From NCBI GenBank assembly GCA_002067895.1, contig MVRE01000002.1:1-64000 (forward strand): a stretch of 64,000 bases of DNA. The letters are read 5' to 3'. Positions 4,146-7,580 of the stretch are shown piece by piece. The position numbers and the translations under genes were made by a program. Position 1 is the stretch's first letter. The number at the start of each line of letters is the position of its first letter. Under the pieces are notes generated by a model. That model was not told the origin of the DNA. It ran no database searches and saw only the letters and a program-made list of their open reading frames with translations. The stretch is from Methanoregula sp. PtaU1.Bin051. GTDB lineage: Archaea > Halobacteriota > Methanomicrobia > Methanomicrobiales > Methanospirillaceae.

Positions 4146-4709
4146 ATGGAGCACGACCCCGCACAGGTTTATACCCCTGCCGACGACACATTTCTGCTGC
4201 TCGATGCCGCACGGCAGGAAGCCCGGCCGCGTGACAGCGTGCTCGAGATCGGCACCGGCAGCGGCTATATCGCCGGCGAACTCCGGAAAGCAGTACGCCG
4301 GGTCGTGGCGACGGAGATCAACCCTCATGCCGCCGCTTCTGCACGGGAACAGGGTATTGATGTCATCCGCACCGATCTCTTCGCGGGAGTCCGCGGCACC
4401 TTCGACCTGATCATCTTCAACCCCCCCTACCTCCCGACAGCACCGGAAGAACGCATCGGCGACTGGCTGGAGTATGCGCTGGATGGCGGGATCAGCGGCC
4501 GGGAGGTCATCGCACGTTTTCTTTCGGGCGCGGGGCGGGTTCTTGCGCCAGGGGGAAGGATCCTGCTCCTGATATCATCGCTGACCGGGCTTCCCAATGT
4601 GACCGGCATTGCGTTTGAAGAAAAGTACTATGCAGAGGTCGTGCGGGATCAGGTAGTCGAGGGCGAAAGGCTGTACGTGATCCGGCTGAAAAGGAATGGC
4701 AAATCTTAA
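4146..4709 (+). CDS. HemK2/Mtq2-type protein-glutamine N5-methyltransferase
   Basis: Class I SAM-dependent methyltransferase of 187 residues. Motif I is VLEIGTGSGYIAGEL (about residues 32-46), and the catalytic NPPY motif of amino-methylating enzymes appears as IIFNPPYLPT near residue 97. Length and lack of an N-terminal helical domain match archaeal HemK2/Mtq2, which modifies the GGQ glutamine of release factor aRF1, usually with the activator Trm112 (not present here). Archaeal members can also be annotated as tRNA or generic methyltransferases. The 3' end overlaps the end of the convergent polymerase gene by 4 bases. Confidence 0.85.
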   Translation: MEHDPAQVYTPADDTFLLLDAARQEARPRDSVLEIGTGSGYIAGELRKAVRRVVATEINPHAAASAREQGIDVIRTDLFAGVRGTFDLIIFNPPYLPTAPEERIGDWLEYALDGGISGREVIARFLSGAGRVLAPGGRILLLISSLTGLPNVTGIAFEEKYYAEVVRDQVVEGERLYVIRLKRNGKS

Positions 4710-6712
4710 GAAACAGGGACGGCTCGGAGATCGCGCCTCCCCACGCACGTTCCGCAGTACTCCCCGAACACGAATGATACCTCCTCCCACGCCCTCTTCG
4801 CCAGTTCGCGGTAATAGTGCAGGTCGGCGCCCCCGGCACATTCCCCTGCAGGGTCTACGACATGCCGCCGTGCGTCCCGCACCACGTACGCAAGGGTCAT
4901 TCCCGGTGCAATATCGATACCGTTCCTCCTGTACGTGGCGACAGCCGATCCTTCGAGGCAGGCATGGCGGTATGCCGTTGTGCTTACTCTCTTTCTGATC
5001 ACCAGTTCCGAAGGCGGTGCTGAGGGGAGATCCCGGACTGCGGCATGGTACAGGTCTGCCGCCCGCCCCCCCAGTCCATGCAGGTCTTCCGGGGCAACTG
5101 CTGTCTGCATGAGGGCGAGGATGCGCTCCTGCATCTTACGGATATGCGGGGGCGTGTCATGACGCCGTACAGCGATCCCGCGCACCTTCAGGTTTCCATT
5201 CTCACGCCTGCCGAAGTAGCGGGTGAACGCGCCCGTACCGTCGTTCTGAGGGAGAAAAGCGATCCAGGAAAACCGGTCAACCTCGACCGGGATGCTTGTT
5301 GCCTGGTACAGACTCCGCTGCAGGCGGCCGATGTCTCCCCCGCCATGGATCCAGAGGCTGTCGACGATCCCGTGGAGGACTTCAAAGCCGGAATCTTCGG
5401 CGCGCTCCTTTGCCTCGATCAGGATCCTGCGGGCATGGGCCGTGATCTTTTCATGCACCTCGATGCTGCCGAACCGGGCGTTCCGGAAACCGGTATACCC
5501 GAATGAGACGACGAGAAGCCATTTGAGTATGGCATCGGCGCCATCATAGCGGGAGTTATGCTTTTTCATCTCCTTCGTTAATACGCGGAGATCCAGCAGC
5601 GGGCCGAGAGCCTGTGCAAGGAAGCCGGCTTTTTCCGTGGACCGGATCGTCTCGGGCGAGAGATTCTCTCTGACGATGATAGACGGGTAGAGCGAGGTGA
5701 AGTCGATCTCGGCGATATCGCCGTACACCCCGGAGACGGGCTGGAACATCATGCCGCCCCGGTCCATCTCCCGAAGGAAGGCAAAGGACCGGTTTTCCTC
5801 GGGACCTTTTTTGTGGAACGGTACCGCGATCCCCCGGCTGACCGCCTCGTACGCCTCGTACGCGGAGACGAGGGTGCCGGGGGTATGCCGGGAGACAAAG
5901 TTCGGCGGCATCCCGGTTAACCGTGAGGCGAGGAGCACCCCTGAAAGGCCGCCTTCCTGGTACACGAAGCTCTGGACGGTGTCGATCAGGACACGCCCTT
6001 GCGGGAGCAGGGCGCACCCCCGGTAGTGCACCTTCCCATAGCTCCAGTAGGATGTCGCTGAGAGCCGGGTGTAATGCCCGGTCCGGCTGAGCGGGAGATC
6101 GATATCCAGCTCCTGCGCCCGCGCCACCAGCGCAGGGGCCCGCACGTCCGCGTCGGGAAAGAGGATCACGTCGGGGTCGAGCCCTGCGATCATGCTGCCG
6201 AGATCGGCAAGCACGGTCTTCTCCGGCCCCCGGATCCGCTCGCACCGGCCTCCATCGGTCACCGCGATGCACGAAAACTCGTGCGGCCGCATCAGGCTGC
6301 CGTGCACCGCAATCCTGACAAGACGGAGATCCCGCTCGAAATCCGGGGTGAACCGGGACACGTCCGAAGGGGTACAGGGAGAGATCCGGCGCTCCGCCAT
6401 CCACCGCTGGTCGCAGCGGAGATCGACATTATAGAGCTCCACGTCCTGTCCGCTCTGCCGTGCGATCACGCCTGCAGCGTTTTGCCCGGCAAAGACGGCA
6501 TACCCCGCAACCTTGCCGAAGATGGTCGTAAAGGTGCATTCATCGACCCTGAACCGCCCGGAGAGCCCCTCGACAAGATCCCCGTGCCGGTCGGCGTCCG
6601 GAAAGGCGATATAGAACGGCGGGGCGTATTCCTCACGGTGGATTCGTGCACCCTGATCGAGGTCGCAAAACCCTACGCCGCCCCTCCCGCACCAGGAGTC
6701 AAGGATCCACAC
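4706..6712 (-). CDS. PolB2-like B-family DNA polymerase with altered catalytic motif
   Basis: A 668-residue protein with a B-family polymerase core. Motif A is DFTSLYPSII (337-346), keeping the first catalytic Asp and the steric-gate Tyr. Motif B is recognisable around KWLLVVSFGYTGF (397-409). Motif C, normally YxDTDS, reads HGIVDSLW (447-454): the first Asp of the D-x-D pair is replaced by Ile and only the second remains. No intact exonuclease I motif (DIE) is seen in the N-terminal half. These are hallmarks of the archaeal PolB2 lineage, long considered inactivated but with members reported to act in lesion bypass. It is the last gene of a three-gene operon with a small helical protein (14-base overlap) and a RecA-like protein. 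Direct catalysis is uncertain. Confidence 0.82.
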   Translation of the reverse strand: MWILDSWCGRGGVGFCDLDQGARIHREEYAPPFYIAFPDADRHGDLVEGLSGRFRVDECTFTTIFGKVAGYAVFAGQNAAGVIARQSGQDVELYNVDLRCDQRWMAERRISPCTPSDVSRFTPDFERDLRLVRIAVHGSLMRPHEFSCIAVTDGGRCERIRGPEKTVLADLGSMIAGLDPDVILFPDADVRAPALVARAQELDIDLPLSRTGHYTRLSATSYWSYGKVHYRGCALLPQGRVLIDTVQSFVYQEGGLSGVLLASRLTGMPPNFVSRHTPGTLVSAYEAYEAVSRGIAVPFHKKGPEENRSFAFLREMDRGGMMFQPVSGVYGDIAEIDFTSLYPSIIVRENLSPETIRSTEKAGFLAQALGPLLDLRVLTKEMKKHNSRYDGADAILKWLLVVSFGYTGFRNARFGSIEVHEKITAHARRILIEAKERAEDSGFEVLHGIVDSLWIHGGGDIGRLQRSLYQATSIPVEVDRFSWIAFLPQNDGTGAFTRYFGRRENGNLKVRGIAVRRHDTPPHIRKMQERILALMQTAVAPEDLHGLGGRAADLYHAAVRDLPSAPPSELVIRKRVSTTAYRHACLEGSAVATYRRNGIDIAPGMTLAYVVRDARRHVVDPAGECAGGADLHYYRELAKRAWEEVSFVFGEYCGTCVGRRDLRAVPVS

Positions 6713-6935
6713 CTTCCTCCTCCTGCGCCCGGGCCAGCTCCACGAGAACCGAGAAGACGGCCGCTTCGTCCGGGTCGGTAAAGCCGTAGAAGCTCTCGCT
6801 GCTGTGCGCTTTGGCCATCTTGACGACCTTCTCGGCGTACTCCCGGTCCTTTCCCCGGAACGCCCGTGCCGCCTGCTCCCACCGTGCCAGCGTGGCCTTC
6901 ATGCCCTGCCGCACGCTTAAAAATGTCCTCCCCAT
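6699..6935 (-). CDS. Small helical protein in the PolB2 operon
   Basis: A 78-residue, Lys/Glu/Ala-rich protein predicted to be all alpha-helical, with no cysteine and no membrane segment. I do not recognise a named family. Its start overlaps the stop of the RecA-like gene upstream as TGATG, and its 3' end overlaps the polymerase start by 14 bases, so the three are almost certainly co-translated. Small helical partners next to PolB2 are expected by analogy with accessory subunits of damage-tolerance polymerases. A role as a bridging subunit is inference from position only. Confidence 0.7.
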   Translation of the reverse strand: MGRTFLSVRQGMKATLARWEQAARAFRGKDREYAEKVVKMAKAHSSESFYGFTDPDEAAVFSVLVELARAQEEEGVDP

Positions 6936-7456
6936 CAGATCCCCTCCGGTACCCGCTGGGGCACCTCGTACAGGGTATGGTCACGGTACACCGGGCTGCC
7001 CGCAGTGGCTCGGGCAGGTGCCGGAAAACCCGTGAAGTGAAAGACCCGGTCTGCCGGCCGCATCAGCCGGTTCAGCAGGAAGTCCTGCCGGCAAGCGGAG
7101 AGGATCACGAGAGCCTCGCGGGAAACCTCTTTCAGGGCGCTGGCGACCGGGCCGGCCATGTCCGCGCCCCCCTCGTACACCGACGGGTCGTGCTCGACCA
7201 CAACGATGGTGTGGTACGCTTCCTTGATAACAGTCAGGAGCTGGCCGGCAGTTAACGCCCTGCGCACGTCAAAGTCCGCTGACGATGCATCAATGGCCGG
7301 GAGAATGCGTGAGTAACTGCCGCAGATGTAGAGGAACATGAACCGCTGGAGCTCCGGGGATGCATTGAGCACCGCAACCAGCAGCCGCTCGTCTGCAACG
7401 ATGACATTGAACGTGCCGGTTCCCAGCCGGATGCCCGGGCAGAGCGTAAATTCCAT
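6935..7456 (-). CDS. RecA/RadA-like protein without a P-loop
   Basis: A 173-residue protein whose strand-helix pattern resembles the RecA/KaiC ATPase core: a first strand ending in GTGTFNVIVADERLL, a helix with a FMFLYICGSYSRIL strand, and a Walker B-like strand HTIVVVEHDP at about 92-101. The usual Walker A GxxxxGKT is absent, so ATP hydrolysis is unlikely. It is the first gene of the operon with the small helical protein and PolB2. The arrangement recalls the bacterial ImuA-ImuB-DnaE2 mutagenesis cassette, in which an inactive RecA-like protein supports an error-prone polymerase. The fold call is pattern-based and should be confirmed by structure prediction. Confidence 0.55.
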   Translation of the reverse strand: MEFTLCPGIRLGTGTFNVIVADERLLVAVLNASPELQRFMFLYICGSYSRILPAIDASSADFDVRRALTAGQLLTVIKEAYHTIVVVEHDPSVYEGGADMAGPVASALKEVSREALVILSACRQDFLLNRLMRPADRVFHFTGFPAPARATAGSPVYRDHTLYEVPQRVPEGI

Positions 7457-7580
7457 GCACCATTTCCATGCTATGGCCGGTCAGATAAGGATCCGGGACG
7501 GGCGGTGCGAAAGTGAAATGAACGCTATCTCAGGTGTAGTACGGGATCACCCGTTTATCTGCAGGTACAGGCAGTCCGGT

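Follow-up and report, generated by a model that had tools for sequence, protein, structure and literature searches.

A B-family DNA polymerase in which the first aspartate of a catalytic motif is replaced, encoded in one operon with two small proteins, raises the question of what such an assembly does and under what circumstances the cell produces it. The operon lies in the first 64,000 nucleotides of contig MVRE01000002.1 of the methanogen Methanoregula sp. PtaU1.Bin051 (assembly GCA_002067895.1); this whole stretch is referred to here as the window. Three genes make up the operon:

6935..7456, minus strand: iRadA-like gene, first gene of the operon, an open reading frame of 173 amino acids with an ATG start, placed in a 52-sequence alignment
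6699..6935, minus strand: PPB2 (arCOG07300-like), a small helical protein, an open reading frame of 78 amino acids with an ATG start
4706..6712, minus strand: PolB2 DNA polymerase, an open reading frame of 668 amino acids with a GTG start, matching NF004416

The coordinates agree with the overlaps of 1 nucleotide (iRadA/PPB2) and 14 nucleotides (PPB2/PolB2) given for the three minus-strand genes in a preliminary description of the window. The operon is the published PolB2-PPB2-iRadA mutasome, a known kind of damage-tolerance machine, which was described by Makarova 2014 (PMC4104785) and modelled as a heteropentamer by Timinskas 2025 (PMC11791011). The existence of that model makes the earlier view that the role of the polymerase's partners is not settled outdated. 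With considerable confidence, we read the operon as an inducible translesion synthesis mutasome of this Methanoregula-type methanogen, belonging to a damage regulon that has radA at its centre.

The promoter of the operon carries the evidence for shared control. The preliminary description had proposed looking upstream for a damage response, and a box in common with radA promoters is found there, followed by a TATA-like element:

7502..7514, minus strand: damage-regulon box ACTTTCGCACCGC, 58 nucleotides before the iRadA ATG, the best site of the window by a matrix trained on radA
7484..7489, minus strand: TATA-like element CTTATC, 25 nucleotides from the start of the box to the start of the element

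The shorter form ACTTTCRC is present in 75 of 90 regions upstream of PolB2 cassettes, at positions -51 to -61 (about -57) from the start codon, against 0 occurrences on the reverse strand of the same 90 regions and a mean of 0.6 (maximum 3) in shuffled versions. In the window, ACTTTCGCACCGC is the sole match to the box even when one mismatch is allowed; chance alone would give about one match of this kind, and the observation therefore rests on the exactness of the match and on its position. A matrix derived from 44 distinct radA sites, trained on radA promoters only and independent of PolB2 promoters, places the PolB2 box at the top of the 64-kb window (23.8 versus 11.0 bits). The threshold of this matrix, set at the level reached by 1% of random 220-mers, is passed by 64 of the 81 PolB2 promoters of the order Methanomicrobiales and by 0 of 9 outside it, though several of these nine have the ACTTTC core. 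The spacing between box and TATA-like element is 25 nucleotides in 47 of the 58 PolB2 promoters scored and 24-27 nucleotides in most radA promoters. Relocated PPB2 genes in the order's genomes examined possess a box of their own in 5/5 cases (L493, L494, L495, L502, L504). Co-regulation of the PolB2 operon with radA by the box is well supported.

The box is a near-constant feature of radA in the order. It is contained in 106 of 110 radA promoters (29/30 in a set with gene starts anchored on the N-terminal DLPGVG-type motif, and 77/80 in a second set), and it is absent from the control promoters of thermosome (0/19) and core Orc (0/28) genes. A core Orc gene as an autoregulated member of the regulon was rejected on the latter count. 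Genome-wide, the 13-mer has 139 matches in 25 related genomes, about 5-6 per genome, against 29 for the reversed pattern. An open reading frame of at least 80 amino acids is positioned at 40-95 nucleotides in 53 of 88 box loci and in 13 of 29 loci of the reversed-pattern control; because these controls also pass, the distance to a reading frame is by itself a weak filter, and the identity of the downstream genes is the better evidence. These genes include repair and recombination functions (RadA at 8 loci, iRadA at 5, UvrA at 2, an Mre11-like phosphoesterase at 1) and replication functions (Orc1/Cdc6 at 5 loci, MCM at 2, RPA-like proteins at 2), along with an RNase-H-fold nuclease family (5 loci), a TIGR03916-type radical-SAM protein (3 loci, below the cut-off of the model) and one protein read by eye as AlkD-like. 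Extra Orc1/Cdc6 genes with the box occur in genomes G004, G009 (three copies) and G010. One more extra Orc1/Cdc6 gene, with an ACTTTCA core (L247, on G005:C23 at ~17.9 kb), was met through the reversed control pattern by overlap.

In the Methanoregula genome itself, the box scores 26.5 bits at radA, 24.1 at a 132-residue reading frame, 23.8 at the PolB2 operon, 23.7 at a 137-residue gene, 18.8 at a GyrI-like gene and 17.0 at uvrA. The radA of this genome has its closest similarity, up to 95% identity, with radA of named Methanoregula records. The 132-residue frame (L147, on G000:C12 at ~11.3 kb) is of unknown function and has a TATA-like element at 25 nucleotides. The 137-residue gene belongs to an unknown family of about that length (MMKKSGYFQKTG...), which follows the box at 10 fetched loci (L145, L126, L127, L130, L200, L203, L138, L189, L170, L123). 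The member scanned (L145) has no Pfam or NCBIfam match, and the family is a candidate new damage-response gene.

The operon itself is widely conserved. The order iRadA-PPB2-PolB2 on one strand is kept at 69 of 110 PolB2 loci from Methanomicrobiales and relatives, and three close variants raise the count to 72 (the PolB2 frame is split in two of them, and PPB2 is duplicated in the third); the co-occurrence of the three families far exceeds chance. Gene order in other Methanomicrobiales, named in the preliminary description as a check, is conserved apart from a clade without PPB2, which is discussed below. The polymerase scores 804 bits against NCBIfam NF004416 (cut-off 516), confirming its earlier assignment to the PolB2 lineage, and is a single-copy gene in its genome (assembly of 2.31 Mb in 23 contigs). 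Its two catalytic motifs stand in the sequence as first described:

5675..5704, minus strand: motif A, DFTSLYPSII, read in the sequence and kept in relatives
5357..5374, minus strand: motif C, HGIVDS, with the first Asp replaced by Ile, the second Asp kept and the His invariant

HxxxD is retained at motif C in all 106 relatives in which the motif could be located among the 110 loci, 76 of them reading HGIVDC and 10 HGIVDS. The position of the first Asp is taken by Ile in 100 of these sequences, by Met in 4 and by Asn and Leu in one each, and is never acidic. Because HxxxD is kept throughout, the substituted motif is under tight constraint, in a polymerase that, judged by its relatives, is not decayed; the term 'broken', applied to it before, is misleading for a pattern that is itself almost invariant.

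The second protein displays the published hallmarks of PPB2 (arCOG07300): the MGR(T/S) arm, which defines PPB2, conserved Arg3 and Arg9, and a length of ~80-90 amino acids (PMC11791011). The window protein has 78 residues, Arg3, Arg9 and a start reading MGRTFLSVR, with the MGRT arm at 6935-6924 (minus strand). M1, G2, R3, S7, R9 and E57 are the invariant columns of the PPB2 alignment, and the PPB2 profile has no match among PDB sequences. The arm is modelled as contacting the D(K/R) motif of PolB2 (PMC11791011):

5759..5764, minus strand: D(K/R) motif of PolB2, the DR of DRGG, read in the sequence

Genome-wide, PPB2 is undetectable in 17 genomes that encode PolB2, the majority of which are near-complete. 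The Asp of D(K/R)GG is lost in 12 of the 14 PPB2-less PolB2 sequences read, against 0 of 96 others, of which three keep the Asp and read DRGA. All 14 PPB2-less polymerases form one clade of the tree (support 93), so the loss of the Asp together with PPB2 is a single evolutionary event, and its use as a statistical test was rejected on this ground. The joint loss agrees with the model in which this Asp would hold the arm of PPB2, and is evidence against the older proposal that the D(K/R) Asp substitutes for the catalytic Asp. The clade may possess a diverged PPB2. Its PolB2-iRadA cassettes (L078, L080-L089, L091-L093) are spread over three families. Other departures from the usual arrangement are found in genus g10, where G117, G169, G170 and G183 each contain 2-8 PPB2-like stretches, some of them interrupted by stop codons, and G117 and G169 have decayed second copies of PolB2. 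In another family, PolB2 is present without adjoining iRadA or PPB2 (L098, L100-L102, in G315, G395 and G376), in some cases twice per genome, with PPB2 elsewhere.

The first gene is accepted as iRadA by its position and by the literature, in which HHpred and AlphaFold evidence has been published (PMC4104785, PMC11791011); part of the family is detectable by HHpred only (PMC4104785). The window protein has no Pfam match, and a profile of 52 family members finds no match among PDB sequences by hmmsearch. Walker A is absent from the window protein, and none is conserved in the 52-member alignment. The earlier picture of a RecA-like protein without Walker A accordingly stands as regards the missing motif, and the RecA-likeness is unsupported by the sequence tests (Pfam, hmmsearch, hhalign). 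Most of the 52 aligned relatives keep a clamp-type C-terminal QxxLxxF, which resembles the clamp motifs reported for iRadA (PMC11791011). The C-terminus of the window protein (6935-6980) is degenerate at this motif and reads DHTLYEVPQRVPEGI.

In the mechanism proposed here, PolB2 would extend primer ends past lesions without proofreading, and a PPB2 trimer together with an ATPase-dead RadA-like subunit would hold it at the stalled end, as the published AlphaFold models of the assembly suggest. The upstream box, of consensus YACTTTCRCMCYSC, would act from ~25 nucleotides before a weak TATA element, in common with radA, uvrA, relocated PPB2, extra Orc1/Cdc6 and further genes of repair and replication; after damage, it should increase transcription of the operon. 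We infer damage induction of the methanogen operon by analogy with systems in which the core of the box is known. Outside the order, radA genes with the box or its core are found in three members of family f21, in f14 (as a ACTTTCAATCCGC-type variant), in f11 and in ten haloarchaea-like genomes, haloarchaeal by genome type and RadA sequence, all ten of which have ACTTTC in the radA promoter. In Halobacterium, TTTCACTTTCA is located upstream of TATA in genes induced by ultraviolet-B (UV-B), namely radA1 (8-9 fold), top6B, vng17 and vng280, and a similar sequence at Methanospirillum radA was already noted in the same study (Boubriak 2008, PMC2556686). In Sulfolobus acidocaldarius, the hexamer ANTTTC (ACTTTC), which occupies -44 to -39 relative to the start site and is upstream of, and close to, a weak transcription factor B recognition element (BRE), is essential for UV induction (PMC5817253), and the element is bound by Orc1-2 (PMC9738581). 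Among putative binders of the methanogen box, an Orc1-2-like Orc1/Cdc6 protein comes first, as a candidate only.

A number of observations weigh against this reading. No post-damage transcriptome of a Methanomicrobiales archaeon was found in the literature. Only 10 of 30 uvrA promoters have the box, mainly in two families, in addition to the uvrA of the Methanoregula genome. Alignment of the iRadA and RadA profiles by hhalign gives a probability of 0.2%, no better than shuffled columns, with a RadA profile that is shallow and of low diversity, and an AlphaFold prediction of iRadA made without an alignment is unusable (predicted local distance difference test score, pLDDT, of 37). The radA promoters of several other Halobacteriota families show no box by this pattern. 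The methanogen ACTTTC begins ~25 nucleotides before the TATA-like element, farther upstream than the Sulfolobus hexamer, a position judged from the TATA-like element and not from mapped start sites. By our own estimate, ANTTTC would occur inside a conserved 13-mer by chance in ~1-2% of cases. The Methanoregula genome has two Orc genes, one initiator-type and one divergent, and the box precedes neither; its absence from the core Orc promoters of the order points the same way.

Several of these observations favour an explanation to which we assign slightly less than an even chance: the operon and the box are as described, and what binds the box is a different regulator, unconnected with Sulfolobus Orc1-2, such as a Sta1-like protein or the regulon's 137-residue protein. 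The spacing that differs from Sulfolobus and the lack of a box on either Orc gene of the genome are in line with this, as are the control of a Sulfolobus radA paralogue by Sta1 (cited in PMC2556686) and the recurrence of the box before the 137-residue family. It is opposed by the extra Orc1/Cdc6 paralogues that carry the box in several genomes, as Sulfolobus orc1-2 does, and by the arORC2 genes that neighbour PolB2 operons in many euryarchaea (PMC4104785). A further idea, tentative and in our view rather unlikely, is that Orc1-2-type Orc1/Cdc6 proteins bind the ACTTTC box in haloarchaea and Sulfolobales as well as in methanogens and that the box represents a single, ancient damage element of the archaea; the different spacing of the box weighs against one factor shared with Sulfolobus. 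If true, this element would be the archaeal counterpart of LexA/SOS, linking recombination by RadA with excision repair and with the PolB2 mutasome.

The substituted active site allows for a different explanation, in which PolB2 is catalytically dead, the complex works at stalled forks as a regulator or as a clamp with a structural role, and replication genes are expressed constitutively through the box. Every relative does lack the first Asp of motif C, early literature called the family inactivated (PMC4104785), and the box also precedes MCM and RPA genes. Sulfolobus Dpo2, however, has the same substitution in motif C and is as active as the replicase, does not proofread and extends past lesions (PMC8764526), so that the preliminary statement that catalysis by PolB2 is not settled is outdated: for Dpo2 it largely is (PMC8764526, PMC7390963). 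Targeted mutagenesis in Sulfolobus also depends on PolB2 (PMC7390963, as summarised in PMC11791011), and lesion bypass by the methanogen enzyme is suggested by this homology. The near-invariance of motif A and HxxxD likewise argues against a dead enzyme, and the UV induction of motif-bearing Halobacterium genes (PMC2556686) and the boxless core Orc and thermosome promoters against a constitutive box; we consider this explanation improbable. Least credible of all, and very improbable in our view, is a general strong-promoter or BRE-type element in place of a regulatory site, an idea that draws on the fixed spacing upstream of TATA in all sets and is contradicted by the handful of sites per genome, by the boxless control promoters and by recurrent targets that are mostly DNA repair and replication genes.

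No Y-family polymerase (PF00817) was found in 4/4 genomes of the window's genus (G000, G011, G164, G184), and PolB2 may therefore be its main translesion polymerase. Most of the surrounding family has a Y-family polymerase, and across families both, one or neither of the two enzymes are present; a strict complementarity between them was rejected, since most of the family have both and some families have one or neither. The motif as such has been described before. As far as we found in the literature searched, which included few subscription papers, the novelty is in its occurrence at the PolB2 operon, in the extended consensus and in the wider list of targets. The shared box points to a common damage response, so far undescribed for these methanogens, and puts lesion-bypass synthesis in archaea under what appears to be the control that also governs recombination. 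It also joins a little-followed haloarchaeal motif of 2008 to the Sulfolobus element. With a defined length of 13 nucleotides, a fixed spacing and a short list of targets, the box can be mutated and used as bait to approach the control of the euryarchaeal damage response.

The preliminary description likened the operon to bacterial ImuA-ImuB-DnaE2. A damage-tolerance cassette comparable to bacterial mutasomes is what the window contains, and Pol V (UmuD'2C-RecA) is the closer published analogy. Both bacterial systems, under LexA, likewise place a polymerase with small partners and a relative of RecA in a damage regulon; the polymerase family, the small subunit and the control box are all unrelated to the archaeal ones, and no LexA was found in the window operon. 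With the described PolB2-PPB2-iRadA mutasome (PMC11791011, PMC4104785), the window shares the three genes, their order, the MGRT arm, the D(K/R) motif and the HxxxD motif C. Unlike that system, the window iRadA has a degenerate clamp-type motif at its C-terminus, and a related PolB2 clade of the same order is without detectable PPB2. Sulfolobus Dpo2 (PMC8764526, PMC7390963) shares the active-site substitution, as IID there and IVD in the window, and a role in damage tolerance would be expected from this likeness; Dpo2 is crenarchaeal, with activity and induction measured, whereas both are inferred for the methanogen PolB2. The Sulfolobales ANTTTC element (PMC5817253, PMC9738581) likewise places an ACTTTC core before the TATA of damage genes and counts Orc paralogues among its targets, and differs from the methanogen box in its TATA spacing and in the C-rich 3' half. 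The Halobacterium UV motif TTTCACTTTCA (PMC2556686) has in common with the methanogen box the core TTCACTTTCA upstream of TATA on radA. As in a TTTCACTTTCA-type regulon, the methanogen box lies upstream of TATA at a fixed spacing and is common to radA; the methanogen consensus YACTTTCRCMCYSC is longer, and the box extends to the PolB2 operon, uvrA, extra Orc genes and others.

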